Below, piece after piece: positions 70 to 28,973 of a stretch of DNA of 50,198 nucleotides. Made by a program: the position numbers and the translations under genes. Every line of letters starts with the position of its first letter. The first letter of the stretch is position 1. Origin of the DNA: Candidatus Zambryskibacteria bacterium RIFCSPLOWO2_02_FULL_39_26 (GTDB lineage Bacteria; Patescibacteriota; Minisyncoccia; Phycocordibacterales; DATDWN01); contig MHWN01000019.1 of the NCBI GenBank assembly GCA_001825395.1, forward strand, positions 1 to 50,198. The letters run 5' to 3'. The notes beneath the pieces were generated by a model. The model ran no database searches, was not told the origin of the DNA, and saw only the letters and a list, made by a program, of their open reading frames with translations.

Positions 70-142
70 GCGCGTGTAGCTCAGCTGGTAGAGCGCTCGA
101 CTGATACTCGTGAGGTCCATGGTTCGAACCCATGCACGCGCA
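70..142 (+). tRNA. tRNA-Ile (GAT)
   Basis: Cloverleaf: acceptor GCGCGTG/CACGCGC, D arm GCTC..GAGC, anticodon loop CTGATAC, T arm CATGG-TTCGAAC-CCATG. Acceptor helix is extended outward (gctttgtgcgcgtg/cacgcgcacaaagc). Confidence 0.9.
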
Positions 143-211
143 CAAAGCACGGTAGTTTATTCTTCTGAAAAAGCTCTCGAAAGGTCTTGCGAAAGTGCCC
201 CGCACTTTCGC

Positions 212-249
212 ACTCGTGAGGTCCATGGTTCGAACCCATGCACGCGCAC
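212..249 (+). repeat. Partial duplication of the 3' half of tRNA-Ile (38 nt identical to 106..143)
   Basis: actcgtgaggtccatggttcgaacccatgcacgcgcac is present at 106..143 and 212..249. Confidence 0.95.
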
Positions 250-835: not shown

Positions 836-996
836 ATCCAGTCTTTCCCGGTGTCATGCCGATTTAATGACTACGGCAATCGTCAATTATGTGCTCAATT
901 GAAGCACACAATATCGACTCACATTCTTCTGTCAAAGACAGAAAAGGTTTCAAATTGAATTATTCCACGACCAGCTTCCGCTAGCCGTGCCTTGTT

Positions 997-1776
997 CAGG
1001 CACTTCTACATGTCGCCATGTAGCTTGGACTATATCATCATCCGTTGAAAGAAAATTTCTGCTTTTATTGGATGCCATGATCCTATTATTCTAGCAAATT
1101 CTTTGTGGCTCCTTCGACTAACAAAGAATCTCCAATAATACGGATCTACCCTTTTACTTGGATTGTGGATTTTTCCACATCCTATTCCAAGACCAATAAG
1201 AATACTTTTTAAGGTTTCCATTTTTTCGAAGTCTTTTTGAACTAACTGAATGTAGAATTCGTCACGAGTTCGTGGAATTCCACCCTCGGCATCAAAAAAT
1301 CCTCGAATATAAGCAATTTTCTCTCCTTCTGTCATTAGTGTGATCGGATCAAAAGAGAAATGTAGATCTTTACATACTGTTTCCAGTATATAATAATCAC
1401 GATCTTTCCCTTCTTTATAGATCCATGCATTCACACCAACCGACATCAATAAATCTTTCAACATATCGAGCCATTCCGGATATTTCTGTCCAAAACGGAT
1501 TCTTTTTTTCTTATTAAGAGAGGCGTCATGCATAGCTCCTTGAAGATACGCATATATTTCTCTCTTACTCAATACTCCAGATTTAAACGGAGTTCGGCGT
1601 GTAGTCTCTGAGGGGTTACTCTTTATTAAAAGAGAACTTCCCTGCTGATTGTCTGCACTTAAAGCATTTTCACTCATTTGGTAATTATACCAAGTGAGTA
1701 GCCTAAGATACACAGAGTTTCCAGCATACAGCCAATTTTTTCACAAAGAATTACTTCTTTGGGTCGCAACAAGTTT
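997..1776 (-). mobile_element. Group I intron in 16S, about S1498, with LAGLIDADG ORF
   Basis: 5' exon GTCGT pairs with IGS GCGAC (terminal U.G); P10 CTTGTT/AACAAG; core P/Q (tgctggaaa, aatcagcaggg), R (cctcagagactacacgccgaac), S (gatatagtcc); intron ends in G. Confidence 0.9.
1030..1713 (-). CDS. LAGLIDADG-type homing endonuclease-like protein
   Basis: ORF inside the group I intron; motif IAYIRGFFDAEGG. Confidence 0.88.
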   Translation of the reverse strand: MYLRLLTWYNYQMSENALSADNQQGSSLLIKSNPSETTRRTPFKSGVLSKREIYAYLQGAMHDASLNKKKRIRFGQKYPEWLDMLKDLLMSVGVNAWIYKEGKDRDYYILETVCKDLHFSFDPITLMTEGEKIAYIRGFFDAEGGIPRTRDEFYIQLVQKDFEKMETLKSILIGLGIGCGKIHNPSKRVDPYYWRFFVSRRSHKEFARIIGSWHPIKAEIFFQRMMI

Positions 1777-2093
1777 ACGACTTACTCCCTGTTACCGAAT
1801 TTACCGTGGTCTAGCATACGCTAGCCTTCGGGTATTCCCGGTTCCCTTGAGTTGACGGGCGGTGAGTACAAGACTTGAGAACGTATTCACCGCGGTATAG
1901 CTGACCCGCGATTACTAGCAATTCCAACTTCATGGGGTCGAGTTTCAGCCCCCAATCTGAACTGGGGCGACTTTTATTAAGATTGGCTCAGGGTTACCCC
2001 GTCGCAACTCGTTGTAGTCGCCATTGTATTATGTGTGTAGCCCAAGGTATCAAAGGGACATGCTGACCTGGCGTCATCCTCGCCTTCCTCCCA

Positions 2094-2238
2094 GCTTTTT
2101 GCTAGCAAGCAAAAAGTAGTTTGATAAGTTAAAAAAGTTTAAGAAGTTTTATAAGTTTTTGAATTCTAACTTATTCAACTTTTCTGACTTATTAACTTAT
2201 ACAACTTGCTTTTTGAGCTTACGCTCAAAAAGCTGGGC
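2094..2238 (-). repeat. Palindromic expansion in 16S helix 39 region
   Basis: ccagctttttg...caaaaagctgg arms enclosing two mini-hairpins and an AT-rich imperfect palindrome, where E. coli has a short helix. Confidence 0.75.
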
Positions 2239-2681
2239 AGTCTCGCCTGATACGTATAACAGACAACGAGGGTTGCGTTCGTTACCCCACTTAAGGGAAC
2301 AATTCAAATCACGAACTGACGACGGCCATGCATCACCTGTCCAACTGTCCTTGTGAGACGGCACACGTTTCTGCGTGCCTTCAGTTGGATTTCTAACCTT
2401 GGTAAGGTTCTTCGTTTATCATCGAATTAAACCACATAATCCACTGCTTGTGCAAGTCCCCGTCTATTCCTTTGAGTTTTAACCTTGCGGTCGTACTACC
2501 CAGGCGCCGAGCTTAACGCGTTAGCTTCGTCTCTCAGAGGGTCGATACTCCGAAAAACCAGCTCGGAAAGTTTAGGGCGTGGACTACTGGGGTATCTACA
2601 TACGTGTTACTTCTTTCGAAGACCACTGTACCCAGTATTACAGATGGATCTCTATGTCGCCATAGAGGTCGGACTATATCA

Positions 2682-3404
2682 TTATCTTAATGTAAACTGT
2701 CGCAACGAATATGTTTCTTTTGGATTATGGTAGGAATCTATCATTTTTTCCAGAAGTTTTTGTTTTTCAATGTTCGGCCAGAATCGTGATGTGTGCGTAA
2801 TATGCACACCATCAATAAATCCGACTTTTTGATAAAACTTTTTCATATTTTCTTTGTCTCTTATTTTTACTTTACCATCCCCTGCATCACAGGCTGTAAT
2901 ACCTAGTGATTGGAGGAGAGTGATATATTCTTTTCTGAGCTTTGGATGAGCACAAGCGAGATAGACTCCACGAATCAGCCATTTAGCTTCATCTTTTTTA
3001 GTCTTTCTCCGTGCTACATACAAACTCACTCCACCATCACAACTAAATGCTGATTGCAAGAATTCTTTTACGACGTTATGTCGAATAAGTTCTTCAATTG
3101 GTAACTTAGTTTTAGGAAGCTCGCCATTTTTATACCGAAGTGTTCGGAATGTTCCAAACTTTTCAGTAAATAATTGACCTGCTTCTTTTGAATCAACGAT
3201 CGCTCGATGGAGTCCGTCAGAAGTCATGTCCAAACGGACACGATTTTCTGGTAATGCAAATTCTTGCATTATAGACTCTTTGAAAATCGAAACAAGTCGC
3301 TGTGATTTATTGGAGAAGTAGAATCGCCAGCTGTTTCTGCCTTTCGGCGACAAACAACCGTCGGTAAAAATAAGTCCAAGTAATGTTGCAGTAGTTTTGT
3401 TCAT
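2682..3404 (-). CDS. LAGLIDADG-type homing endonuclease-like protein
   Basis: LLGLIFTDGCLSPKG and FLQSAFSCDGGVS double motif; located in group I intron. Confidence 0.9.
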   Translation of the reverse strand: MNKTTATLLGLIFTDGCLSPKGRNSWRFYFSNKSQRLVSIFKESIMQEFALPENRVRLDMTSDGLHRAIVDSKEAGQLFTEKFGTFRTLRYKNGELPKTKLPIEELIRHNVVKEFLQSAFSCDGGVSLYVARRKTKKDEAKWLIRGVYLACAHPKLRKEYITLLQSLGITACDAGDGKVKIRDKENMKKFYQKVGFIDGVHITHTSRFWPNIEKQKLLEKMIDSYHNPKETYSLRQFTLR

Positions 3405-3515
3405 TAAGATATTCGGCGTTTAGTCTCTGAGGGGTCAATCAAGCACTAATTTTTGGAGTCAAGATAATACTTGACAATAATAGTAGTCTATGTTATTCTG
3501 TTAGTCGGAGGTGAC

Positions 3516-3635
3516 CATGACAGACACAAAGAATTTTGCCGAGTCCTTGGAAGGAAAGGGTCTCACACCGCAAGAGAAAGCTGTCCTGATGAAACAGGCT
3601 GGACTTCCCTACGATGAGAATTCTCCCAAAAGGTA
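3516..3635 (+). CDS. 39-aa peptide MTDTKNFAESLEGKGLTPQEKAVLMKQAGLPYDENSPKR
   Basis: TTGACA-N17-TATTCT promoter, GGAGGTGACC-ATG, terminator gaggttgtgtcgttccgacacaacctc downstream. Confidence 0.6.
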
Positions 3636-3707
3636 GCCTGGCGGATGCTTTGGAGCGACGTATCGCGCGACTCGCGATTATGAAGCTTTAGGCCAGGCGG
3701 TTCTCGA

Positions 3708-3744
3708 GAGGTTGTGTCGTTCCGACACAACCTCTTATTCTTTT
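3708..3744 (+). terminator. Rho-independent terminator in the cassette
   Basis: gaggttgtgtcgttccgacacaacctcttattcttttt. Confidence 0.75.
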
Positions 3745-4176
3745 TCCAAAAATTAGTGCTTGATGACTTCCCTGCTGATTGCCTGCACTCAAAACATTTT
3801 CACTTACTTAATAATTATACTAAATAAGTAGTCTGAGATACACAGGTATTCCAGCATACAGCCAAATTCTCATTCCGACGTCACCGTCGGAAGGGACCAG
3901 ATCGATCCCATTCGCTACCCACGCTTTCGTGTTTCAGTGTCAGGAGTGGCCCAATGAACTGCCTTCGCTTTTGGTGTTCCCCATGATATCAACGGATTTC
4001 ACCCCTACTCCATGAGTTCCATTCATCCCTGCCATCCTCTAGCTGTGCCGTTTCAATCGCACTTCCGAGGTTAAGCCTCGGGTTTTAACAATTGACTAAC
4101 ACTGCCACCTACACACCCTTTACGCCCAATGATTCCGGATAACGCTCGGGGCACTCGTATTACCGCTGCTGCTGGC

Positions 4177-5059
4177 CAATTTATTCTCATATCACTACGA
4201 GGATTGGACTATATCATCATCCATTATTTATTTTAAAAACAAATAATGGAGTTCGGCGTCTGATAGAAAATTTAAAAATCTCTCTATCTCACTGTTTTGG
4301 AAGTTTTTTAGACTTTCTCAAGATCAGTCTCTGAGGGGTCAAGTATAATTTGGGGTAGTTTGTAATCAAAACAGGATAAAATGTATGGCTGTATGGTGGA
4401 AAGAAAAATATCTCTTCCATCTTTGCCAACATATAGTTTTATATATTTCTTGCCTCTGCAAGATGGTGTTTGTATAGAAGTTTTTATTTTAAACTTTTCA
4501 TACAATACTTCTTGCAAAAGTCTTACATCTGATTGGCTGAATGAATCAGTACTAAAGGAAAACGAGTAATGTGATTTGACTCGATAATCCAATGTTCCAT
4601 CATCCATAAACCAAACTGCAAGACTAAGAGAAGAAACTGGTAACTTTTTAATAGTAGCTGGAACTGATTTTGACCCTGATCCATAGAACAAATTTCTAAA
4701 GAAATCTAATTCAACAAGAGATCTCGTGCTGAAATACCATTGCCCATTATCTTTTCTTTGTTTAGGAGGAGTTTTGACTAGATTTTGAAACTCATTATAG
4801 AGCCAGAAAACGTAATCTTTTTTGCGTTCAGACTGTTTTATTTGTAATCTGCTCGCCTTGAAACCATCATGTTCCAAGTATCCATCTCCCAACAAAGTTC
4901 CTACTACTATTTCTTTTTGTCGTTCTGTTAAACTCACTACTTAATTATACCGACTTTCCTGCTGATTGTCTGTCAAGAATCTCTTATGAGACGCAGCTCT
5001 TAACAGATTTCCAGCATATAAGCCGAATTTGCTTAGAACCTTACGATTCTAAGTCGCGC
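4177..5059 (-). mobile_element. Group I intron in 16S near position 516, with LAGLIDADG ORF
   Basis: Splits ACTGT / GCCAGCAGCAGCGG; P/Q (tgctggaaa, aatcagcagg), R, S present; exact 5' boundary uncertain. Confidence 0.85.
4308..4937 (-). CDS. LAGLIDADG-type homing endonuclease-like protein
   Basis: VVGTLLGDGYLEHDG and LAVWFMDDGTLD motifs. Confidence 0.92.
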   Translation of the reverse strand: MSLTERQKEIVVGTLLGDGYLEHDGFKASRLQIKQSERKKDYVFWLYNEFQNLVKTPPKQRKDNGQWYFSTRSLVELDFFRNLFYGSGSKSVPATIKKLPVSSLSLAVWFMDDGTLDYRVKSHYSFSFSTDSFSQSDVRLLQEVLYEKFKIKTSIQTPSCRGKKYIKLYVGKDGRDIFLSTIQPYILSCFDYKLPQIILDPSETDLEKV

Positions 5060-5285
5060 ACAGTAATTACGAATTTTTAATGCTACTAAATTGGAAGTGG
5101 AGCTTAATCCACATTTCACGAGTTTAGCAACCCCTTATTCGTGAGGTACTATCAATAAACTTTCTCCCTCATAAAAGATGTTTACGACCCAGAGGGTCTT
5201 CATCCATCACGCGGTGTCGCTCCATCAGACTTTCGTCCATTGTGGAAGATTCTCGACTGCGGCCACCCGTAGGTGTATGGTCCGT

Positions 5286-6019
5286 CATAGTGTTTTCCCC
5301 GATCACTCGGGGTATCAGACTATACCTTCATCCTCGACTAAACTTGTAAATTTAGAGAGGAGCCAACATGTTAGCTTGTACATAGGTCTTCTAACCGGTA
5401 CAAACTCTCTCGCGTCAATTTATAAAATTGTACGAGAAGTCGTTACGGGGTCAAATGATAAAAATTTTCTTTTTCCGCCAGTTTTCGAATTTAGAGATCG
5501 TATTTCTTCAATCTTTTTAAGGATTGAGGAATAATTTTCGTCTGAAATTCGATTTGTCCGGAGGTTATCGCCAAATTGAGATAATATCTCAAGAGCGATA
5601 CTTGCTTGTTTCTTTTTCAAAATAAGATGCGGAAGCATTTTATTGAGAATGCGGCGTACGTCTTTGCGGTCTACAATTACTAACTCCGCTTGATCGTGCG
5701 CCACAGAAACCCGCACTTTTCCCGCATTAAGATATTTTTGCATTTTCTCTAACATATCGATATGTCGAATATGTTGAGTGAAATTAATCCGAATGCGAGG
5801 ACGATATAAACGCTGGTATTGTGGAGACTGTTTCGTCAGTATTGCTACCAAAGAACCGTCTCCATCAAAGAAACCTGCGATATACGCGTCAGAAAACTTT
5901 TTTTCATCGACTTCCCACGGTATTGCCTTCATATACATGTATTATATCATGTCCTCTGAAGGTTCCACCGTTATGAGTTGGATTTTACTTGAGAATCACT
6001 TCTCAAGGAGACAAATTTT
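5286..6019 (-). mobile_element. Group I intron in 16S, about S328, with LAGLIDADG ORF
   Basis: 5' exon ACTGAGAT / 3' exon ACGGACC; candidate IGS GTCTC pairs with GAGAT; S element tatagtc. Confidence 0.85.
5420..5938 (-). CDS. LAGLIDADG-type endonuclease-like protein (single motif YIAGFFDGDGSL)
   Basis: Intron-encoded ORF with motif. Confidence 0.88.
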   Translation of the reverse strand: MYMKAIPWEVDEKKFSDAYIAGFFDGDGSLVAILTKQSPQYQRLYRPRIRINFTQHIRHIDMLEKMQKYLNAGKVRVSVAHDQAELVIVDRKDVRRILNKMLPHLILKKKQASIALEILSQFGDNLRTNRISDENYSSILKKIEEIRSLNSKTGGKRKFLSFDPVTTSRTIL

Positions 6020-6429
6020 ATCTCAGTACCATCGGTGGGGGCCAAGCTCTCACTCCCCCTAAGCGTCATTGCCTTGGTAGGCCATTACCCTACCAACTAG
6101 CTGATACTCCGCAGGCCATTCTTTTAGCGCAACTGTAATAAAACAGCGCTTTACTCCGAAGAGACTATCAAGTATTACCCAATCTTTCGACTAGTTATTC
6201 CTGACTAAAAGGGATGTGCCCACGTGTTACTACCTCGTTCGCCACTGCTCTTGCGAGCCGTTTGACTTGCATGCCTTATCCACACCGCCAGCGTTCATCC
6301 TGAGCTAGGATCAAACTCTTAAAATAATTTCTGTGAAATTATTTTATCCGACCCATGAGACGAAGTCTCGTCTGGGTTTAGGATAAGCCCTAAACGCTTT
6401 CGCGTCGGGCAAAATTTGATTCACAAATT

Positions 6430-6448: not shown

Positions 6449-6460
6449 GAAGAATATAAT

Positions 6461-6545
6461 TTAGTCTATAAAGTCAAGGGTCTTAAAGTCTGTAAAGTAA
6501 ATTTGAATTCACTTTATGGACTTTATGGACTTTATGGACTTTCTA
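6461..6545. repeat. AAAGTC/GACTTT palindromic repeat, copy 1
   Basis: Opposed taaagtc..actttatgg units, including a tandem 9-mer ACTTTATGG. Confidence 0.8.
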
Positions 6546-6639: not shown

Positions 6640-6730
6640 AACTAGTCTATAAAGTCAAAGGTCTTAAAGTCTGTAAAGTAAATCTGAATTCACTTTATGG
6701 ACTTTTAACTTTATGGACTTTACGGACTAC
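6640..6730. repeat. AAAGTC/GACTTT palindromic repeat, copy 2
   Basis: Near-identical to 6461..6545. Confidence 0.8.
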
Positions 6731-13110: not shown

Positions 13111-13797
13111 TTATTTATTAAAGGTCACCCAATCAAAAATCTCTTTATCGAAAATTTCTTTGTCTAAAAAATATTGTGGAAAAACCTTTAGATTTAAAAT
13201 CCTGCCTCTTAATCTTTTGATTTTCCTAAAATCTAAATAACTGCTCCACTCATATTTATTTAAAAATTCAATGCTTTTTTTAACATTTCGTATCTCCTTT
13301 TCTTTCCATAAAGGATCTATTAATTTTAAAGGGTTTAGATGTATATATGAAAAAATGTATTTTGATTGAACATCATTTTTTGTATGAACTGCTTTAAATG
13401 GACCTTCAAAAAGTTTTCCTGTTCTTTTATATTTTTTATTAAAGTACATTGAATATGATGTGCAAAGTTTTTGAACGAACACGCTGATTGAATTCGTCTC
13501 CTCTCCTAGGTCCCCTAGGCGACGCCTAGGGGAAATGTATAGATGAAAATGATTGGGCATTAAAACCCATGCTCCGATTGAAACAAGTTCTTCCCCTCTA
13601 TTGAAATCGAAGGCATCAATTTTTTTACCAACAATATCATCCCTAAAATTTATACTTTTTTCTGAATTGCACAAATATAATAATTTTGTAAATCTGTCTC
13701 TATCTAGATCATCGGTAAAAATATTTTGCTTGCTGTTCCCACGATTATAAATATGGTAATACTCCCCTTCAACTAAAGCTTCTTTTCTATATGTCAT
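13111..13797 (-). CDS. REP-associated tyrosine transposase (RAYT, Y1/IS200-like)
   Basis: GEYYHIYNRGNSKQNIF, WVLMPNHFHLYI, YFNKKYKRTGKLFEGPFKA, YIHLNPLK; flanked by matching palindromes. Confidence 0.93.
   Translation of the reverse strand: MTYRKEALVEGEYYHIYNRGNSKQNIFTDDLDRDRFTKLLYLCNSEKSINFRDDIVGKKIDAFDFNRGEELVSIGAWVLMPNHFHLYISPRRRLGDLGEETNSISVFVQKLCTSYSMYFNKKYKRTGKLFEGPFKAVHTKNDVQSKYIFSYIHLNPLKLIDPLWKEKEIRNVKKSIEFLNKYEWSSYLDFRKIKRLRGRILNLKVFPQYFLDKEIFDKEIFDWVTFNK
13511..13533. repeat. REP palindrome inside the RAYT coding sequence
   Basis: tcccctaggcg-a-cgcctagggga, same core as 13056..13102 and 13820..13840. Confidence 0.95.
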
Positions 13798-19627: not shown

Positions 19628-20308
19628 CAAATTATTCAACTTTATTTACTTTTCAAATTTCACTACAGGGCATGCTTCCGTGTCGGAATGCCTGGCCCGT
19701 ACCGAGCTATGCTCTGGTACTGGGCAGAACAGGTGCCTGTCCCGTAGTCAGCTTTGCTGTACTACTGGGATGACCACCACGTTAAATCACCAACACAAAG
19801 AATTCAATCTATTTTGTATATTGTATCTAATTGTAAAAGTAACGTTCATGGCTGTATTATGATAATTAAAAATAAATTTTTAATTGTATTCATTCCATGT
19901 AACAGGATAAAGCTCACCCACGAATAATACAAACAGATACTAATCTTTCGAATAAATTTAGTAATTCATTCGTTAAAATTCGTACATTCGTAGATTGGTG
20001 GGCTGGTTCTCAAATTTCCTAATAGAAATCGGCTAATTAGTACACCTCGGCTCAACACATTACTGTGCTTACACCTAGTGCCTATCACGTAATAATCTCT
20101 TACGGGCCTCAAACGATTCCTAATCTTGAAGTTGGCTTCATGCTTAGATGCTTTCAGCATTTATCCATTCCCGACTTAGCTACTCTGCGGTGCCCTTGGC
20201 AGGACAGCAGACACACCAGAGGTCAGTTCATCCCGGTCCTCTCGTACTAGGGACAAATCTTCTCAAGAATCAACGCCTACAGTAGATAGGAGACCAACCT
20301 GTCTCACG

Positions 20309-21796
20309 CATGTTCCCACAAATTACTTTGTGCATTGGACTATAACTTGATCAAGTCCAAAGTCTGTAAAGTCGTAAAGTCTTTAAAGGAAATTCCTTTA
20401 GGGACTTTATGGACTTTTAACTTTCGACTCAACTGTTGATGTTTAGTCTCTACGGGCACTTATGAAGTTGAGAGAAGGAGCGAAGAAAAATCTTCGCTGA
20501 AGGAGTGTGGGCCGAAAGGAGACTCCGGCCAATCAAGACAATCAAGCTTGAACCAGCGCGAAGCTTACAATCCAAGCGCCTAGTCACTTTCTAGTATTAT
20601 CAAGTCCAGAAATGCACTCCCGACTCCACACATCCTTCTCTCAACTTCATAAACTTCCCTCGGTATTACCCACACATATGGGTTCCACCGATATAAATCA
20701 ACTTTAACCCCTCCCTCCTCGTACGAGGAGGGAGGGAACCGCCGTGATTTGATTGATCTCGCCCTGCGAAGCTCGTAATCGAGCGAAGTAGGGGCTCTAT
20801 CTTTTATTTGCAGAAATAAATTTCTGCAATTTTAAAACGAACTATATTATTTTTTGCCTCTGAGGATTCAGATTGTGGAGGAATCATTATATATCTTGCG
20901 ATATGATATGAATCCTCCACGGTCTGACATGCCTTCCATTATTACTAATGGTACTGACTATACTTTTTCCAGGTTTTCCACTTCTAGAACTGACGTGTTA
21001 GCACCCGCCTCTTCGGCGAGCACTCTGTCTATCTTACTAGACAAGTCGATACGGGGATTATCAATCTTATAGTTCATTACTTCTGGAATAAACGGAGTAA
21101 CAATTGAAATAAAACGAGTATAATCGTTTCTCCCAATTGCAATTTTCCATTGATTTCTATCTTTCACAATTGTTGGATGTAGATGATACTTTTCCTTCAG
21201 AAAATCTGCAATTACTTTTTGATCTTCAAAAGAAAACGAATGTGTGTTCAAGGTGATGTCGCCACCATTATTTGAACCGTCATCCATATACCACACTGCC
21301 AACATTTGATCCGAAAAAATCGGTAGTATTTCTGTTGGGAACTTCTTCACTCCATTTTTATAAAAAATTTCGTGAATTATTCCAAAGTTTTTTAGACTTT
21401 TTGTGTGAAAGTACCAAGATACTTCTTTTAGATTTCGTTTCTTGTTTAGCCAAGAAATCTCCCTTGGTTCTTTAGAAACTAAATCTTTTAACATCTTATA
21501 CTTCCACCAGACATACTCTTTTTGTTTATCACCATGATGCACTCGAAGGCGAGCAGTGTAACTAGCTCGTATTCCTTTCGATCGACACTCAAGCCGTACA
21601 TCGCCAAGCAATGACCCTATAATCACATCTAATTGATGTGATGGAAATGCAGATTGTAATCTTCCCACGATATTATCCATTACCTATATTTTACCACCAT
21701 AAGTGATAAAAATGTGCAACCGGACTTCACCGTTATGAGTCAGTTTATTTTTATTTATTTCTTATTTATTCTCGTAAATTGTCTTAAGCTGGGCTC
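20309..21796 (-). mobile_element. Group I intron in 23S, about L2593, with LAGLIDADG ORF
   Basis: 5' exon TTCAT pairs with IGS GTGAA; 3' exon CGTGAGACAG after terminal G; R (ccgtagagactaaac); long P6 extension. Confidence 0.85.
20958..21680 (-). CDS. LAGLIDADG-type homing endonuclease-like protein
   Basis: IIGSLLGDVRLECRS and MLAVWYMDDGSNNGG. Confidence 0.92.
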   Translation of the reverse strand: MDNIVGRLQSAFPSHQLDVIIGSLLGDVRLECRSKGIRASYTARLRVHHGDKQKEYVWWKYKMLKDLVSKEPREISWLNKKRNLKEVSWYFHTKSLKNFGIIHEIFYKNGVKKFPTEILPIFSDQMLAVWYMDDGSNNGGDITLNTHSFSFEDQKVIADFLKEKYHLHPTIVKDRNQWKIAIGRNDYTRFISIVTPFIPEVMNYKIDNPRIDLSSKIDRVLAEEAGANTSVLEVENLEKV

Positions 21797-21890
21797 ATGA
21801 ATCCTTACCCAGCTCGCGTATCTTTTTAAATGGCGAACAGCCATACCCTTGGGAGCTTCTTCACCCCCAGGCTAAGATGAGCCGACATCG

Positions 21891-22120
21891 CTGTCGTATT
21901 TTTCTCCCATTACTGAGAGGATCGGACTATATCTTCATCCTAATTTGAAATTAGGAGATTGGCGTGTAGTCTCTACGGGTTCCCAAATATAATTTAATAT
22001 ATGAGCCTTCCCACGGTATTGTCCATGGCTAATGGAGTTCACCGTTATAGCCAATTTATTTTTGTATCGCATTACTGCGATAGGCACCCCGATGTTGCTC
22101 AATTTTTACATTGAACGTTA
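21891..22120 (-). mobile_element. ORF-less group I intron in 23S, L2500 (230 nt)
   Basis: 5' exon GCACCT pairs with IGS GGGTGC; P10 ACATCG/CGATGT; S gatatagtcc, R ccgtagagactacacgcc. Confidence 0.87.
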
Positions 22121-22306
22121 AGGTGCCGAACTGCACCGTCGCTATGGACGCTTAGGTGCAACCAGCCTGTTCATTTCTGTTTTGTAACAGGTGTGTGGCT
22201 GGTGAATAGACTATATCATCATCCCTCTGCTCACGAGCGGAGGGAGACGGCGTGTTAGCGTAAACCTGTGTTCGAAGCAGGAATACACTCTGATCACAGA
22301 AAGTGA

Positions 22307-22915
22307 TCAAGTCGTTACAGGGTCAAAGAGTTTATATTGTAATGATTCAATAATGAATGGGTAGATTAAAGATTGGAATTTTTTAGTCTCTCTTGCTCCA
22401 AAAAATAACGCGAAACCTTTATTTTTCTTATCATAGATTTTGGTAGCAATGTCAAAATTTTTCTCAATAGTTTTTTGTAATATTTCTGATTCAGTACGCG
22501 TTATGCGACCGAGATAAATAAAACTATTTCTGTTTATTTTGTCATAGTAACCATCATCCATATACCAAACAGCAAGTGTTATTGGATGGATTAAAAAATT
22601 TCCAATATCAGTTGGGATAATTTTCTTTCCATTGGGATAGAAATACTTTCGCCATTTTCCAAAGCTGGGTGATGCACTCGACTGCCATCGGCAATACGAG
22701 TACGTTGCCTTAGTTTTGGGATGTATTCTTTCGAGGTAACTTGGTGTTCCTTGAAATAATCTGCCGAAAATTTTTCCTTTCCACAAAACATAATCTTTTT
22801 GTTTATCACTATGTTCCAGTCTTAGTCTGGCATTCTTCTCTCCGGTTTTTTGTAAAAAACCATCACCGAGAACTGTACCGACCAAGACATTTGTTTGTTG
22901 TTTAGTTAATTCCAT
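22307..22915 (-). CDS. LAGLIDADG-type homing endonuclease-like protein
   Basis: LVGTVLGDGFLQKTG and LAVWYMDDGYYD. Confidence 0.92.
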   Translation of the reverse strand: MELTKQQTNVLVGTVLGDGFLQKTGEKNARLRLEHSDKQKDYVLWKGKIFGRLFQGTPSYLERIHPKTKATYSYCRWQSSASPSFGKWRKYFYPNGKKIIPTDIGNFLIHPITLAVWYMDDGYYDKINRNSFIYLGRITRTESEILQKTIEKNFDIATKIYDKKNKGFALFFGARETKKFQSLIYPFIIESLQYKLFDPVTT

Positions 22916-23088
22916 TGCATCAATTATACATTACATTTTTTCTCTCGACTTCCCACGGGATTGCGCACTCTAGAACTCCTAAAACTTTTTTACAAAAGTT
23001 CGGAGAGACCTGTGCGTGTCAACCGTTATAAGCCGTTTATACCCCGACCTAGATCGTCGGGACACAGGAGTAACACAAAATTATTTGA

Positions 23089-23185
23089 GTCATGATTTTT
23101 TATAGTATCTGCGGAACCTGTGAAAAGGTGAGCAGAAAGAAAATTTTCACCAGAAAATTATTCTGTTACTAGAAAAAATTATGAC
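23089..23185 (-). repeat. MITE-like ~95-bp repeat inside the L2449 intron (copy of 46351..46448)
   Basis: Reverse complement gtcataattttttctagtaacagaataattttctggtgaaaattttctttctgctcaccttttcacaggttccgcagatactataaaaaatcatga closely matches 46351..46448. Confidence 0.85.
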
Positions 23186-23463
23186 GAAAAACAATTCCAT
23201 GTATCCTATTTCTCCGCAAATTACTTCGCGGGAGGACAACAAGACTCTTCTAAACAAATCTATAAATAGATCTATCGCAGAGTCCATCCCCGGGGTAGCT
23301 TTTATCCGATAATCTCCGGCCGCCTCTAACACGGACCGTCGGTTCACTATGTTCTGCTTTCGCATCTGTTTGGCATGTACGCCTTACAGTTAAGCCAGCT
23401 TGTGCCATTACACTATCGCCATGGTTTCCATTCACGGCTAGCTGACCTTAATAAACTCCTCCG

Positions 23464-24099
23464 TTACTCTTTAGGCATTTTGTTCCCTAATTTATATCTA
23501 AGAGATGGAATAATATATGGACTTACAATATTCCTAAACTTTTCAGCTGATTCTGAAATAATATAAAGTCTTAAGTATTTTTGTTTTTGAACATGAAGTT
23601 TTGTTTCAATGTCAAATTTTTTACTTAAAACATTTTGTATTCTTTTAAGCTCATCTCTTTTATATCCAAGTGTATGAATAATATAGGTATTGTGTTTTTT
23701 GGACTTCAATGACCCATCATCCATAAACCAAATCGCTAAGCTCAATGGTGTAAGTAATTCGTGAATAGAATTTGGAATTATTTTCTTTTTTCTACTGTAG
23801 AATTGCTCACCATAAAATTTTAGTAATTCATGTGAATATGTAGAGAAATGATAACTGAATGGTTTATTGTTTTTTAGTCTTATCTTAGGAGTCATTCGCA
23901 CCCAATTATGTAATTCCTTATGTAACCAGTCTAAATATTCTTTTTGAATGACAGAATGTTCAATCTTTAGTTTATAAGTTTTTCCATTATTTTGAGTTTC
24001 CAAATGACCATCGCCAAGCGTAAGACCAACAATAATATCTCTCTGTTTTGAGGTGAGTTCTAGATTCTTTTTGTAATCTTCTATCTCTTTTGACCTCAT
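23464..24099 (-). CDS. LAGLIDADG-type homing endonuclease-like protein whose last codons lie in the 23S exon
   Basis: IVGLTLGDGHLETQN and LAIWFMDDGSLKSKK; 3' end ATG CCT AAA GAG TAA. Confidence 0.9.
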   Translation of the reverse strand: MRSKEIEDYKKNLELTSKQRDIIVGLTLGDGHLETQNNGKTYKLKIEHSVIQKEYLDWLHKELHNWVRMTPKIRLKNNKPFSYHFSTYSHELLKFYGEQFYSRKKKIIPNSIHELLTPLSLAIWFMDDGSLKSKKHNTYIIHTLGYKRDELKRIQNVLSKKFDIETKLHVQKQKYLRLYIISESAEKFRNIVSPYIIPSLRYKLGNKMPKE

Positions 24100-24552
24100 T
24101 TTATTTTAATTAGGTTGATACAACTTAATGTATCTACTTTGTGTCACCACAAAGATCGGACTATATCTTCATCCTTTTTACTGGATGGCTGACATTTAGT
24201 CTCTACGGGTATTTATGAATTAGAAGATGAGTGGGTCCGACCGTACGTTCGGACCCAGATGAATTAAGAGCCAAAACTCTGCAATTTTCGTACTACTACG
24301 AGCCCTAAGTCTCGCACCACGCCGCCTGATGCAGTGGTTTGCAGAATATTGTTCCAATTGCTGGACTCTTTACTCATCTTCTAATTCACAAACTTCCCTC
24401 GGTGTAATCTTAATTATATCAAGATTTCCACCGATATAGTCAACTTTTCTCATACCGTTTTCACGATATGGTCCCCCTTATTTCTTTTTTTCGGTATGAA
24501 CCACCTAGGAGGCGCCACGGATTGAAGAAACGAAATTACTTTCGCGTCCTCA
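23476..24552 (-). mobile_element. Group I intron in 23S near L2259-2262 with LAGLIDADG ORF
   Basis: Splits GGGGCGCTATCCT / CCTAAAGAGTAACGG; S and R elements at ~24158 and ~24197; boundaries +/-10 nt. Confidence 0.8.
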
Positions 24553-24853
24553 AGGATAGCGCCCCACTAAAACTGCCCACCAGAAACTGTCTCTCGTCGT
24601 TTTTGCCGCCGAGGTTAGAAATTACATCAAACAAAATGGCTATTTCACTGTCGAGTAGATTCCATCCGAAAACGAAACCGTCAAACCTCTGACCACTATG
24701 CTACGTATGTCAAACGTAATCTCAATATCAAGTTGCAGTAAAGCTCCCGGGGTCTTTTCGTCTAACTGCAGGTAACCGGCATCTTCACCGGTATTGTATT
24801 TTCACCGAGCAAATCCCCGAGACAGTTCTCCAGTCATTATACCATTCGTGCAC

Positions 24854-24891
<38 letters not shown>

Positions 24892-25704
24892 CAATATTAT
24901 ACTTTCATATAACCTTATGGACTATATCTTATCAGTTTTAATATTCTGATTTTGGCGTGTAGTCTCTGAGGATTTTCTAAGAGTGTCGAATTGTTCTGAT
25001 AATGTTTCAGAAATATATTCTTTTGAATATTTTCTGTTTTTACCTTGAGCATTCATAGTAAATGCTATGTCTACAATTCGTTTGAACCCTCCAATAGTTA
25101 AATGCTCCTTTTTCATAATCCTATCTATAATATCGGTGAATTTCTCAAAATCTTGTGTTTTCGTCGCTAAACGATATTTTCTGAAAAACGGAATTATTTT
25201 TTCTTGAAGAGTCTTGTGATTTTCAACCGTGTACGTCATCACATTATATGGTGACGTCTTGCGGTGTATTCTTCCAGTTTTAAAGACATGATCTTTAAGA
25301 AGGAGAAGCACATCTACATTGTTTTCATGTTGATAAACTTGAAAACAAGGATTTAATATCCATTTCCATCCTTGGCCCGTGCCATCTGAATAGACGTAAT
25401 ATTTTTGTTTTGTCATCGCGACACTGAAACTAGACTCACCATCTACAAATCCAGCCATGAAATAGTTTAAATATTTTCCAGGTAGTTTTGATAGACGGTC
25501 ATAATATTCTTTATGTTTTTCTTTTTTCATTGTGTTAGATGACACTCTTAGAATCTTTCCTGCTGATTGTTCGCGTCGGCTTTTGGATTTTTACCGTCAA
25601 GGTACCAAAAGTTCATTGCGAGTTTTCCAGCATTTGGCCAAATTTTAGAACGGCCCTTTTTGTTTCCCGGCACTTTCTTAGAAAGTGCTGGGCGTAGCAA
25701 AATT
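24892..25704 (-). mobile_element. Group I intron in 23S, L1923, with LAGLIDADG ORF
   Basis: 5' exon AACGGT pairs with IGS GCCGTT (6 bp, terminal U.G); 3' exon CCTAAGG after terminal G; P/Q, R, S present. Confidence 0.88.
24922..25545 (-). CDS. LAGLIDADG-type endonuclease-like protein (YFMAGFVDGESSF)
   Basis: Single LAGLIDADG motif, intron location. Confidence 0.88.
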   Translation of the reverse strand: MSSNTMKKEKHKEYYDRLSKLPGKYLNYFMAGFVDGESSFSVAMTKQKYYVYSDGTGQGWKWILNPCFQVYQHENNVDVLLLLKDHVFKTGRIHRKTSPYNVMTYTVENHKTLQEKIIPFFRKYRLATKTQDFEKFTDIIDRIMKKEHLTIGGFKRIVDIAFTMNAQGKNRKYSKEYISETLSEQFDTLRKSSETTRQNQNIKTDKI

Positions 25705-25710
25705 ACCGTT
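25705..25710 (-). other. 6-nt 23S micro-exon AACGGU (E. coli 1918-1923)
   Basis: Lies between L1917 intron (ends ..AAAATG) and L1923 intron (starts AATTTTG); exact match to E. coli 1918-1923. Confidence 0.85.
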
Positions 25711-26005
25711 CATTTTGTGTAGTTTTTTGTATAATGATGCACAACTTTATTTTATCATCAAAAACTTTCTATTGTTAACTCATTGTCGCCAATGAGATCG
25801 GACTATATCATCTCCTCGATTTCTCTCGGAGTTCTGCGTATAGTCTCTGAGGGTTTCCTTCGATTTCTCTCAGGATCTTCCCTGCTGATTGTCCGCGCTG
25901 AACAGATTTTCACTACTTGGTGGTTAAACCGCCAAGTGAGTACTGTTAGATTCTCGGATTTTCCAGCATATAGCAGAATTTTTTGTAACTACAACAGTCC
26001 AGTCT
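25711..26005 (-). mobile_element. ORF-less group I intron in 23S, L1917 (295 nt)
   Basis: 5' exon GTAACTAT pairs with IGS GTAGTTAC (8 bp, terminal U.G); P/Q, R, S elements complete. Confidence 0.88.
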
Positions 26006-26199
26006 ATAGTTACGGCCGACATTCACCAGGGCTTATATAGTCAGCCTACAATCTTGCGATTTTCAGTTACCATATTTGACCTTCTGGCATTGGTCAGGCA
26101 TCACCCCCTATACATCCTCTTGCGAGTTCGCAGGGAGCTGTGTTTTTGATAAACAGTTGCCAGAGAGACTTTTGTTGCAACCTCGCACGCAGCGCGAGG

Positions 26200-26320
26200 A
26201 AATCCAAATTACAAAATCCAAATGACAAATCAATTACAAAATCCAAATGACAAAGTTTTTAATTTTGAAATTTAAATTTTGAATTTGATTGGAAATTTGA
26301 AATTTGAGCTTTGAAATTCC
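26200..26320. repeat. AT-rich palindromic repeat inserted in a 23S helix
   Basis: aaatccaaattacaaaatccaaatgaca... / ...ttggaaatttgaaatttgag. Confidence 0.7.
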
Positions 26321-26905
26321 TTGTGCTACGCACAAGGTAAGCCTTATTCCGAAGTTACGGCTGCTTTTTTGCCGAGTTCCTTGGGGATCTCTCACTCGTT
26401 CGCCTTACTCTACTCGAGCTGACTACCTGTGTCGGTTTACGGTACGGATTTCTGCGTGTTATGCTTAGAAAATTTTCTTGGAAGCGTGCTTTGTTGAATC
26501 CCTTTTGACGTATCGCCAGGTTTAAATGTTAATTGGTATTCTCAATTAAGAGCTCGTGCGGATTTTCCTACACGACTACCTTCTAACATTTACTCAAATC
26601 CAATAATGAGCTCAACATACTACACTCCGTCATTCCATCGCACACACAGAAAGTTCGGGAATATTAACCCGATGTCCATCGGCTGCGGATCTCTCCATTG
26701 CCTTAGGCCCGACTAACCCTGCTCTGATTGACATTGAACAGGAAACCTTAGTCTTTCGGCGTGAAGGGTTCTCACCTTCATTGTGGTTACTTGTGCCAAC
26801 ATTCTTACTTCACAACGCTCCAGCGTGGGTCACCCCTTCACCTTCACAGCAGATGCGAATACTCTCCTACCGCTCCGCTCGCATCTCGCTACACTCGATG
26901 CTTGC

Positions 26906-27031
26906 TAAATTTAAAATTGAAAAATCAAAGTGTAAAATGACAATGCAAAATTAAAAATTTTAATTCTCGAAATTCCTTAATTTTACATTTTTAACTGTCA
27001 TTTTGATTTTTGATATTTACATTTTACATTT
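26906..27031. repeat. AT-rich palindromic repeat in a 23S helix
   Basis: aaatcaaagtgtaaaatgacaatgcaaaattaaaaatt ... aattttacatttttaactgtcattttgatttt. Confidence 0.85.
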
Positions 27032-27722
27032 AGTTCGCCTCGAACACAGTGAGATGCGAACGAAACCCTCAGTTTCGGTACTATGTTTAACCCCGATTAT
27101 TTGCGGCGCGGATTCTCTTACTGAGTGAGCTGTTACGCTATCTTTAAAGGATGGCTGCTTCTAAGCCAACCTCCTCAGTGTTTGAGAAAATCCACCACCT
27201 TAAGTGTACTTAACATAGATTTAGGGACCTTAAATAGAGATCTAGGCTGTTTCCTTTTTGACGTGTGGAGCTTAGCCCCCACCGTCTAACTGCCGTATAT
27301 TTAATCTTCCGTATTCGGAGTTTGATAGGTCTCACGAGATTGCTCCCTGTTGAGACCTTCCAGTGCTCTACCCCGGAAGGATACGTACGACGCTAGCCCA
27401 AAAGCTATTTCGGAGAGAACCAGCTATTACCAGGCTCGATTAGCTTTTCACTTCTTATCACAAGTCATCCGGTAGTATTGCACGGCTAAACGGTTCGGGC
27501 CTCCCAAGGGATTTCTCCCTTGTTCACCCTGCTCATGACAAGCTCGCTCTGGCTTCGGGTCTGTACCACACGATACTATAAATAAATATAGAAGCGCGCT
27601 ATTCACACTCGGTTTCCCTGTGACTCCACCCCGATGAAGGGCTTAGTCGAACCGCGTAGTACAACTCGTTGGCTCATTCTTCAATAGGCACGCCATGACG
27701 GCGCCTCACTTCGTTCGCCACC

Positions 27723-27806
27723 TAAATTCAAAATGAAAATATCAAAATGAAAAATTAAATTCTGAGAATTTTCATTTTACACTTTGATTTCTTATTTTTA
27801 CATTTA
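27723..27806. repeat. AT-rich palindromic repeat in a 23S helix
   Basis: aaaatatcaaaatgaaaaatt...aattttcattttacactttgatttc. Confidence 0.8.
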
Positions 27807-27890
27807 AGCGGTGTCGAACGCAGTGAGACGCCGCGCTGACTCCTTGTAAGCATATGGTTTCAGATCTATTTCACTGTCCTAATCGGACTT

Positions 27891-27927
<37 letters not shown>

Positions 27928-28162
27928 ATCTCAAAATGTATTTAGCCTTACCGGTTAGTACCGGCAAATTCCTCCGAGCTATTCATGTCTCGAAGTACTC
28001 AAGAACAGAAACAAAGAAGATATTATATTTTCACTTACGGGACCATTACCCTCTAGGGTCGCGCTTTCCAGCGCGTTCAGTTAACATAATATTTTTTAAC
28101 TCCTCTCATAATAAATTATGACGTTTCTGCCTTACAACCCCACGCAACTAACCGAAGTTCGT

Positions 28163-28256
28163 TGCAAGTCTATAAAGTCAAAAGTTTATAAAGTCCTTAA
28201 AGTGGGATGCAAATGCATTTCACTTTATAACTTTACAGACTTTAAGGACTTTCGAC
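28163..28256. repeat. AAAGTC/GACTTT palindromic repeat in a 23S helix
   Basis: gtctataaagtcaaaagtttataaagtccttaaagtg...cactttataactttacagactttaaggactttcgac. Confidence 0.85.
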
Positions 28257-28427
28257 TCGCATCTTACCTCAGTAAGGTGCGTGGTTTGGGCTTTTGCGTT
28301 TTCGCTCGCCGCTACTTGCGCAATTCTTATTAGTCTTTTTTCCTCCAGGTACTGAAATGTTTTACTTCCCTGGGTGTACTCTGTACATAATCTGCACAGT
28401 TCCAACACCTCACACAAGATTGATGTT

Positions 28428-28545
28428 CAAAATCAAAATTTAAAAATCAAAGTGTAAAATGACAATGCAAAATTAAAAATTTTTAATTCTATAATTTTAC
28501 ATTTTCAACTGTCATTTTTATTTTTGATATTTACATTTTACATTT
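28428..28545. repeat. AT-rich palindromic repeat in a 23S helix
   Basis: Near-identical to 26906..27031. Confidence 0.85.
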
Positions 28546-28973
28546 CAAGCATCTCACCTCTGTGAGATGTTGGAGGGTTTCCCCATTCAGAGATTTCCGG
28601 ATCGCAGGTTGCTAGGCACCTCCCCGAAACTTATCGCAGCCATGCTACGTCTTTCATCGCCATTTTGAGTCAAGGCATCCACCATACGCTCTTAAATTTC
28701 CCATTAGGAAATTTAAAAACCACATGACTGCAAAATATCACCACTGATACTTTGTAATCATTTACCCCAGTAGTAGAGCAAGGCTCACTACAGGGTTTCA
28801 CTTTATCCTGTTACATAAAATTAATATGTAACACTTTTACTTACTTTTACCTACTCCATCTACACTCGAAAAGACCCCAGTCTTTTATTAAAGTGCGATG
28901 GTATGAAGTTTTCAAATAACTTTCTTTTCTGAAATTTCACTTTTCACCCATCCGAAGAATTGGGGTTGCGGAA

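Follow-up and report, generated by a model that had tools for sequence, protein, structure and literature searches.

Group I introns with open reading frames (ORFs) of the LAGLIDADG_1, _2 or _3 families have been reported in the 16S and 23S rRNA genes of bacteria of the Candidate Phyla Radiation (CPR), with position 1498 among their sites (Tsurumaki et al. 2024, PMC11270868). In that study, LAGLIDADG_3 occurred in 16S only, with up to 16 inserts per gene and up to 5,627 bp of insert per 16S; antisense or nested genes are not mentioned in its main text. The DNA considered here (hereafter the window) is the 50,198-nucleotide contig MHWN01000019.1 of Candidatus Zambryskibacteria bacterium RIFCSPLOWO2_02_FULL_39_26. 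It contains a single 16S rRNA gene on the minus strand, from ~6328 to ~948, that is broken by four inserts, which are very probably group I introns with LAGLIDADG ORFs. This four-intron part is a further example of a well-documented CPR pattern and is ordinary for the group. The unusual part of the locus is a composite intron at E. coli position 788 (S788), which holds a recurrent small-gene cassette antisense to the 16S gene. As in the published CPR insertions, group I introns with LAGLIDADG ORFs lie in 16S; unlike in those, one of them houses an antisense cassette that forms a family.

Other group I introns with endonuclease ORFs in the P6 or P8 loop also keep these ORFs in peripheral loops and their core intact, and an S788 intron free of ORFs occurs in a Nomurabacteria locus (L033). 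The S788 intron of the window differs from them in having its endonuclease in P8 and an unrelated gene on the opposite strand in P6. With regard to the cassette, the closest described systems are integron cassettes and cargo-bearing miniature inverted-repeat transposable elements (MITEs), which likewise are small promoter-gene-terminator units with exchangeable cargo, those of MITEs also having inverted repeats at their ends. In contrast to both, the cassette has no attC core sites, array or internal recombinase, and it occurs as a single copy in rRNA operons only.

Antisense cassette of the S788 intron and its relatives

The composite intron and the elements of its cassette are as follows:
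2599..3904, minus strand: composite group I intron S788, 1306 nt, P1 GGGAU/GUCCC, with a LAGLIDADG ORF in P8 and an antisense cassette in P6 (blastn exon breaks, splice-site inspection, Rfam)
2682..3404, minus strand: LAGLIDADG_3 ORF of S788, 240 aa, in the P8 loop (Pfam PF14528, E 1.2e-8)
3438..3764, plus strand: small-gene cassette antisense to 16S, 327 bp, in the S788 P6 loop, with 20-bp perfect inverted repeats (sequence; six relatives in other genomes)
3438..3457, plus strand: left inverted repeat, ATCAAGCACTAATTTTTGGA (sequence)
3471..3499, plus strand: cassette promoter, TTGACA - 17 bp - TATTCT (sequence)
3507..3512, plus strand: Shine-Dalgarno (SD) site of the cassette, GGAGGT, 4 nt ahead of ATG (sequence)
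3517..3636, plus strand: cassette ORF, 39 aa, MTDTKNFAESLEGKGLTPQEKAVLMKQAGLPYDENSPKR (sequence)
3707..3745, plus strand: hairpin and T-run resembling an intrinsic terminator (sequence; self-complementary 3707-3735)
3745..3764, plus strand: right inverted repeat, TCCAAAAATTAGTGCTTGAT (sequence)

The 39-aa peptide had no Pfam or PHROG match, and the cassette was not present in 11 genus mates. When its DNA was compared with 383 genomes of the class, short matches were obtained at the cassette ends, and the loci so found had the same architecture with other genes. The exact end motif TTTTTGGAGTCAAG-N(2-14)-TTGACA (a form also written GGAGTCAAG-N(2-9)-CTTGACA) was matched once per genome in 7 of the 383 genomes and never by the reversed control. 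A relaxed motif returned the same seven cassettes and no further member, and a wider phylum sample yielded no additional one.

All seven cassettes, from seven genera, are antisense to the rRNA and lie within rRNA introns or, once, in the 16S leader; the sites are 16S S788 (three), 16S S1498, 23S 2262, 23S 2657 and the leader. Four occupy P6 loops, namely those of 16S S788 in the window, 16S S1498 in L132, 23S 2262 in L130 and 23S 2657 in L129. Those of L128 and L138 are located after P9, near the 3′ end of the S788 intron; they have the insertion site and conserved intron flanks in common but differ in their genes. The leader cassette (L133) precedes the 5′ end of mature 16S by ~150-170 nt. 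Every member has TTGACA, a 17-bp spacer, GGAGG 4-8 nt before ATG, and perfect inverted-repeat arms of 14-20 bp. The small ORFs are unrelated between the seven cassettes; by eye, four appear membrane-like (short and hydrophobic) and three soluble, including that of the window. No significant Pfam match was found for any of the seven proteins, and no significant PHROG match for six of them (all but L138). A single orientation relative to the rRNA in all seven would have a chance of 1 in 128 if orientation were random, and, since the rRNA operon makes up little of these genomes, the presence of all seven there is very unlikely to be due to chance (no formal value). Together, the seven form a sporadic inverted-repeat cassette family, to date observed nowhere but in rRNA transcription units, and no description of it was found in the literature searched.

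Several other origins were considered and set aside. A phage, plasmid or viral element was rejected: phages gave no match to the peptide, plasmids none to the DNA and viral contigs none to the end motif. Scanning viral contigs for a 14-mer gave at least 120 stretches, taken as chance matches to a short word. No GTTRRRY or RYYYAAC core site, as expected of an integron cassette, lies within 60 nt of either end. Terminal inverted repeats are present, but there is one copy per genome, which does not fit a many-copy transposon or MITE. In another genome, L134 (G102:C9, 978-2990) contains small genes between TTCTCTAATTCGCGCGAATTAGAGA repeats at 450-480 nt spacing, with cassette-like promoters, and is possibly an integron-like array; it was set aside as a separate array of repeat-separated genes with a similar promoter.

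Other S788 introns also carry P6 inserts. In L033 (1766-2065), the P6 loop has an unrelated ~290-nt insert that contains short inverted repeats and in which no antisense gene is evident, and in a Taylorbacteria intron (L096, ~2470-2720) P6 contains a small sense-strand ORF with an SD-like site. P6 looks like a hotspot for small genes.

The interrupted 16S rRNA gene and its introns

The exons and the remaining introns of the gene, with their ORFs, are the following:
6020..6328, minus strand: 16S exon 1, E. coli 1-328, with an approximate 5′ end (blastn against the 16S of E. coli and genus mates, Rfam RF00177)
5118..5285, minus strand: 16S exon 2, E. coli 329-516 (blastn exon mapping)
3905..4176, minus strand: 16S exon 3, E. 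coli 517-788 (blastn exon mapping)
1777..2598, minus strand: 16S exon 4, E. coli 789-1498, containing the helix 40 expansion (blastn exon mapping)
2093..2235, minus strand: AT-rich palindromic helix 40 expansion, ~140 nt, E. coli ~1144-1173 (fold -56.8 kcal/mol, z -6.2)
948..996, minus strand: 16S exon 5, helix 45 and 3′ tail, ~49 nt (blastn exon mapping)
5286..6019, minus strand: group I intron S328 of 734 nt, ending in G, with P1 GAGAU/GUCUC (blastn exon breaks, splice-site inspection, Rfam RF00028 27.7 bits at 5296-5535)
5420..5938, minus strand: LAGLIDADG_1 ORF of S328, 172 aa (Pfam PF00961, E 2.8e-10)
4177..5117, minus strand: group I intron S516 of 941 nt, ending in G, with a weak P1, AA(C)UCGU/GCGA(C)UU (blastn exon breaks, splice-site inspection, Rfam)
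4308..4937, minus strand: LAGLIDADG_2 ORF of S516, 209 aa, located in the P6 loop and overlapping P7 at its end (Pfam PF03161, E 2.7e-34; placement read from sequence)
997..1776, minus strand: group I intron S1498 of 780 nt, ending in G, with P1 GUCGU/GCGAC (blastn exon breaks, splice-site inspection, Rfam 51.9 bits)
1030..1713, minus strand: LAGLIDADG_3 ORF of S1498, 227 aa as opened, in P8 as read from sequence (Pfam PF14528, E 8.6e-14)

The Rfam model RF00177 recovered the 16S gene as three minus-strand pieces (1728-2694, 3821-4290 and 5011-6326), and a 16S model search of the genome found this gene alone. Exon breaks were placed at E. coli 328/329, 516/517, 788/789 and 1498/1499 by blastn against E. 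coli and four genus-mate 16S sequences, and the intron ends were set by inspecting splice sites. Splicing in silico gives the junctions of intron-free relatives (GAGAT^ACGG, AACTCGT^GCCAGCAG, GGGAT^TAGATACC and AAGTCGT^AACAAGG). The four sites are empty in L014, L015 and L016 of the same genus, and also in L017 where aligned (blastn). All exons match those of genus mates at ~80-100%, and this 16S gene of a Paceibacteria-class CPR bacterium is apparently functional.

All four introns follow a U at the end of the 5′ exon and themselves finish with a G, and a P1 that places a U.G wobble at the splice junction is clear in S328, S788 and S1498. S1498 is above the Rfam group I gathering score, with 51.9 bits at 1476-1786. 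Matches below it were obtained at 4185-4310, 1006-1208, 2650-2844, 5296-5535 and 4809-5081 (scores between 33.9 and 24.8 bits and, for a search space of 5.5 kb, E values between 6e-6 and 0.003), those representing S516, S788 and S328 having E values of 6e-6 to 4e-4 in the region searched; these lower scores are attributed to the splitting of the ribozyme cores by ORFs. By inspection, the S788 and S1498 cores comprise P3 UUGGC/GCCGA, P4 GCUG/CAGC, P6 GGG/CCC, P7 GACUA/UAGUC and a GNRA-capped P9, and the core elements of S516 closely resemble them, while S328 looks like a different group I subtype. This hand folding was checked only through unconstrained minimum-free-energy structures of ORF-trimmed introns, which cannot show the P3/P7 pseudoknot. 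The S788 and S1498 cores are 84% identical over 103 nt, which suggests that one moved to the other's site; the S788 core also resembles that of the S788 intron of L033. The S516 intron is 69% identical over 913 nt to the S516 intron of a Zambryskibacteria metagenome-assembled genome (L046), whose ORF appears frameshifted by eye.

The ORFs of all four introns exceed the Pfam LAGLIDADG cut-off; that of S1498 probably has its true start downstream of the ribozyme core. No similarity was detectable between the S788 and S1498 endonucleases, despite the similar cores. For the S788 endonuclease, no relative was found in the family, and one distant match occurs in a viral contig. The S788 intron of L033 has the same P8 stem, free of an ORF. 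Gain and loss of ORFs are expected for homing endonucleases.

A preliminary description, made from the letters of the window, had placed a 16S gene at 948-6328 with LAGLIDADG-bearing group I introns at S328, S516, S788 and S1498, and this was supported by Rfam and Pfam matches, by mapping the exons on intron-free congeners, and by P1 and the terminal G. The covariance-model check that it proposed for group I cores succeeded at the scores given above. Its judgement that the guide pairings of S328, S788 and S1498 are convincing holds, S516 being weak, and its 3′ exon of ~50 nt measured ~49 nt. The claim that standard 16S polymerase chain reaction misses such genes stands in part: in the gene, the best matches of 515F and 806R have 3 and 2 mismatches and 1492R has no match within 6 mismatches, compared with 1, 0 and 4 mismatches, respectively, in the spliced sequence. 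It overlooked the nested antisense cassette, the replaced anti-SD sequence and five 23S introns of the same window.

Some other features were also observed in the genome. Inserts of ~90-160 nt occupy the helix 40 place in some of the 96 related loci. The 23S gene (20029-28694, minus strand) is interrupted by another five inserts, near E. coli positions 1918, 2262, 2449, 2500 and 2590, four of them with LAGLIDADG-looking ORFs (20958-21680, 22307-22915, 23464-24099 and 24922-25545), and other contigs of the genome contain two more group I matches. Near the 16S gene, ACTTTATGGACTTTA-type repeats are found at 6460-6545 and 6640-6725. A Y1 (IS200-like) transposase ORF detected by Pfam search (13111-13797, minus strand) could be a transposase associated with repetitive extragenic palindromes. 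tRNA-Ile(GAT) at 70-143 (plus strand) has its 3′ half repeated downstream at ~211-249 (plus strand), which might be the trace of an integrated or excised element.

16S tail and translation initiation

Prokaryotes that lack the CCUCC anti-SD sequence have been described (Amin et al. 2018, PMC6107228; PLoS One 2024, PMC10783764), and Absconditabacteria, Campbellbacteria and Wolfebacteria are listed as lacking it in PMC10783764. In the window, the tail of the 16S gene is as follows:
951..967, minus strand: 16S tail TGGAATAATTCAATTTG where TGGATCACCTCC is expected, with no anti-SD sequence (comparison with genus mates and 96 related stretches)

After helix 45, the 3′ exon reads GTCGTGGAATAATTCAATTTG, without CACCUCC, and a similar tail is present in every genus mate whose 16S 3′ end is covered. 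A scan of genome contigs with the tail pattern gave 96 stretches (L028-L123), mostly labelled Nomura-, Zambryski-, Taylor- or Paceibacteria; the pattern itself fixed the tail in these, and the conservation extends to unforced bases before it and GA after it. TGGATCACCTCC was not found in the 611 kb assembly, and it is present in 117 of 383 class genomes, in some by chance.

SD motifs precede 1.6% of 314 clade genes, compared with 1.9% in the background, while a -10 box starting at about -12 from the start codon precedes 30% compared with 5%; this gene set includes orthologues, as most of its loci are near 16S, and its starts are first-ATG guesses. Among 32 genes of the window, the corresponding frequencies of the -10 box are 31% and 0%. 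A -10 box near -12 implies that transcription starts at or near the start codon, and the window genes are devoid of SD sites, many of them looking leaderless. The subset of divergent first genes gave no leaderless signal, perhaps because small neighbours were uncalled. An SD sequence re-targeted to the new tail was rejected, AATTGAA-type motifs not being enriched upstream of genes. As in the prokaryotes of PMC6107228 and PMC10783764, the anti-SD sequence and SD sites are lost together; different here are one conserved replacement tail across many Nomura-, Zambryski- and Taylorbacteria and -10 boxes placed for leaderless mRNAs.

The spliced 16S of the window, like that of its whole clade, lacks an anti-SD sequence, yet the cassette gene carries an SD site; this gene was therefore probably acquired elsewhere, from SD-using lineages. 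The cassettes of L128 and L132 are also SD-bearing and their host 16S tails are without CACCUCC, the tail of L138 keeps only CTCC, and two of the seven cassette hosts (G158 and G321) have a match to TGGATCACCTCC.

Readings of the locus and their meaning

Briefly, it is proposed that the transcript would splice itself to a normal 16S rRNA by removal of the four group I introns, and that each intron would have spread by means of its own LAGLIDADG homing endonuclease, which is predicted to cut intron-less alleles at a conserved rRNA site, repair then copying the intron in. The S788 intron carries a second passenger in its P6 loop, a self-contained antisense small-gene cassette from a family whose members, with different small genes, lie in stretches of rRNA transcripts outside the mature rRNA (ribozyme loops and once the 16S leader). 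That the cassette is a transferable element is the preferred reading, with a probability of roughly 0.65; its transfer, mobility and expression are predicted from sequence. The antisense orientation is probably the sole one tolerated, because the cassette terminator would otherwise stop rRNA synthesis, and a gene facing rRNA transcription may be expressed mainly when that synthesis is low. A wider proposal is put forward tentatively, at a little under even odds: an undescribed family of mobile cassettes that specialise in those stretches of bacterial rRNA transcripts that lie outside the mature rRNA. Its members would be short, invariably antisense and flanked by inverted repeats, with exchangeable small genes in a fixed promoter/SD frame, and would ride homing introns.

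The cassette could instead have evolved in place as an extension of P6, with a small ORF that arose by chance or is a relic, in keeping with arms that extend the P6 stem of the host intron in four members and with the unrelated P6 inserts of L033 and L096. This is unlikely, since the same ends, promoter spacing and SD site recur in P6 of four introns, at the post-P9 site and in a 16S leader across seven genera, the cassette is absent from congeners, and the ORF is equally spaced from the SD site in all seven; shuffling gave chances of the ORF staying open of 0.109, 0.024, 0.010, 0.096 and 0.029 in the five scored correctly. Slightly less probable still is that the function of the cassette lies in a structured or antisense RNA and not solely in its protein gene, for example by silencing through the intron RNA as in type I toxin-antitoxin systems. 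Its gene is antisense to the rRNA precursor, and about four of the seven ORFs resemble short hydrophobic membrane peptides by eye, but three, including that of the window, look soluble and no toxin family was matched. As for the inserts, their retention in an enlarged or fragmented rRNA, as with intervening sequences cleaved by RNase III, is very improbable: the helix 40 expansion may be kept or excised that way, whereas the inserts interrupt the most conserved 16S sites, with U before them, a terminal G and P1 pairings (weak in S516), and their removal gives the junctions of relatives. An assembly artefact, conceivable in a draft of metagenome type, is the least probable of all, given exons that match genus mates at ~80-100%, exact junctions, open endonuclease ORFs, and the occurrence, in other genomes, of related introns at both S516 and S788.

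Certain points weigh against the intron model and the transferable cassette. The genome is a 28-contig draft in a 611 kb assembly; only S1498 passes the Rfam gathering score; the S516 guide lies ~75 nt inside the intron with one mismatch and is the weakest of the four P1 pairings; and we infer the removal of the four introns from the DNA. At the cassette ends, neither a target-site duplication (by eye) nor a clean empty site of the same intron was seen, so no perfect empty site fixes the boundaries, and there is no recombinase gene inside. The outer inverted-repeat arms differ between members and may partly be the P6 stems of the hosts.

If mobile, the cassette family would represent a new travel route for small genes, inside the loops of ribozymes whose homing target is the cell's most conserved gene. 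SD-bearing genes in genomes without SD and anti-SD sequences would provide a natural marker of gene flow between CPR lineages that differ in translation initiation. In addition, with the conserved non-canonical 16S tail and leaderless-type promoters, the choice of start codons without an anti-SD sequence becomes testable in a large clade.

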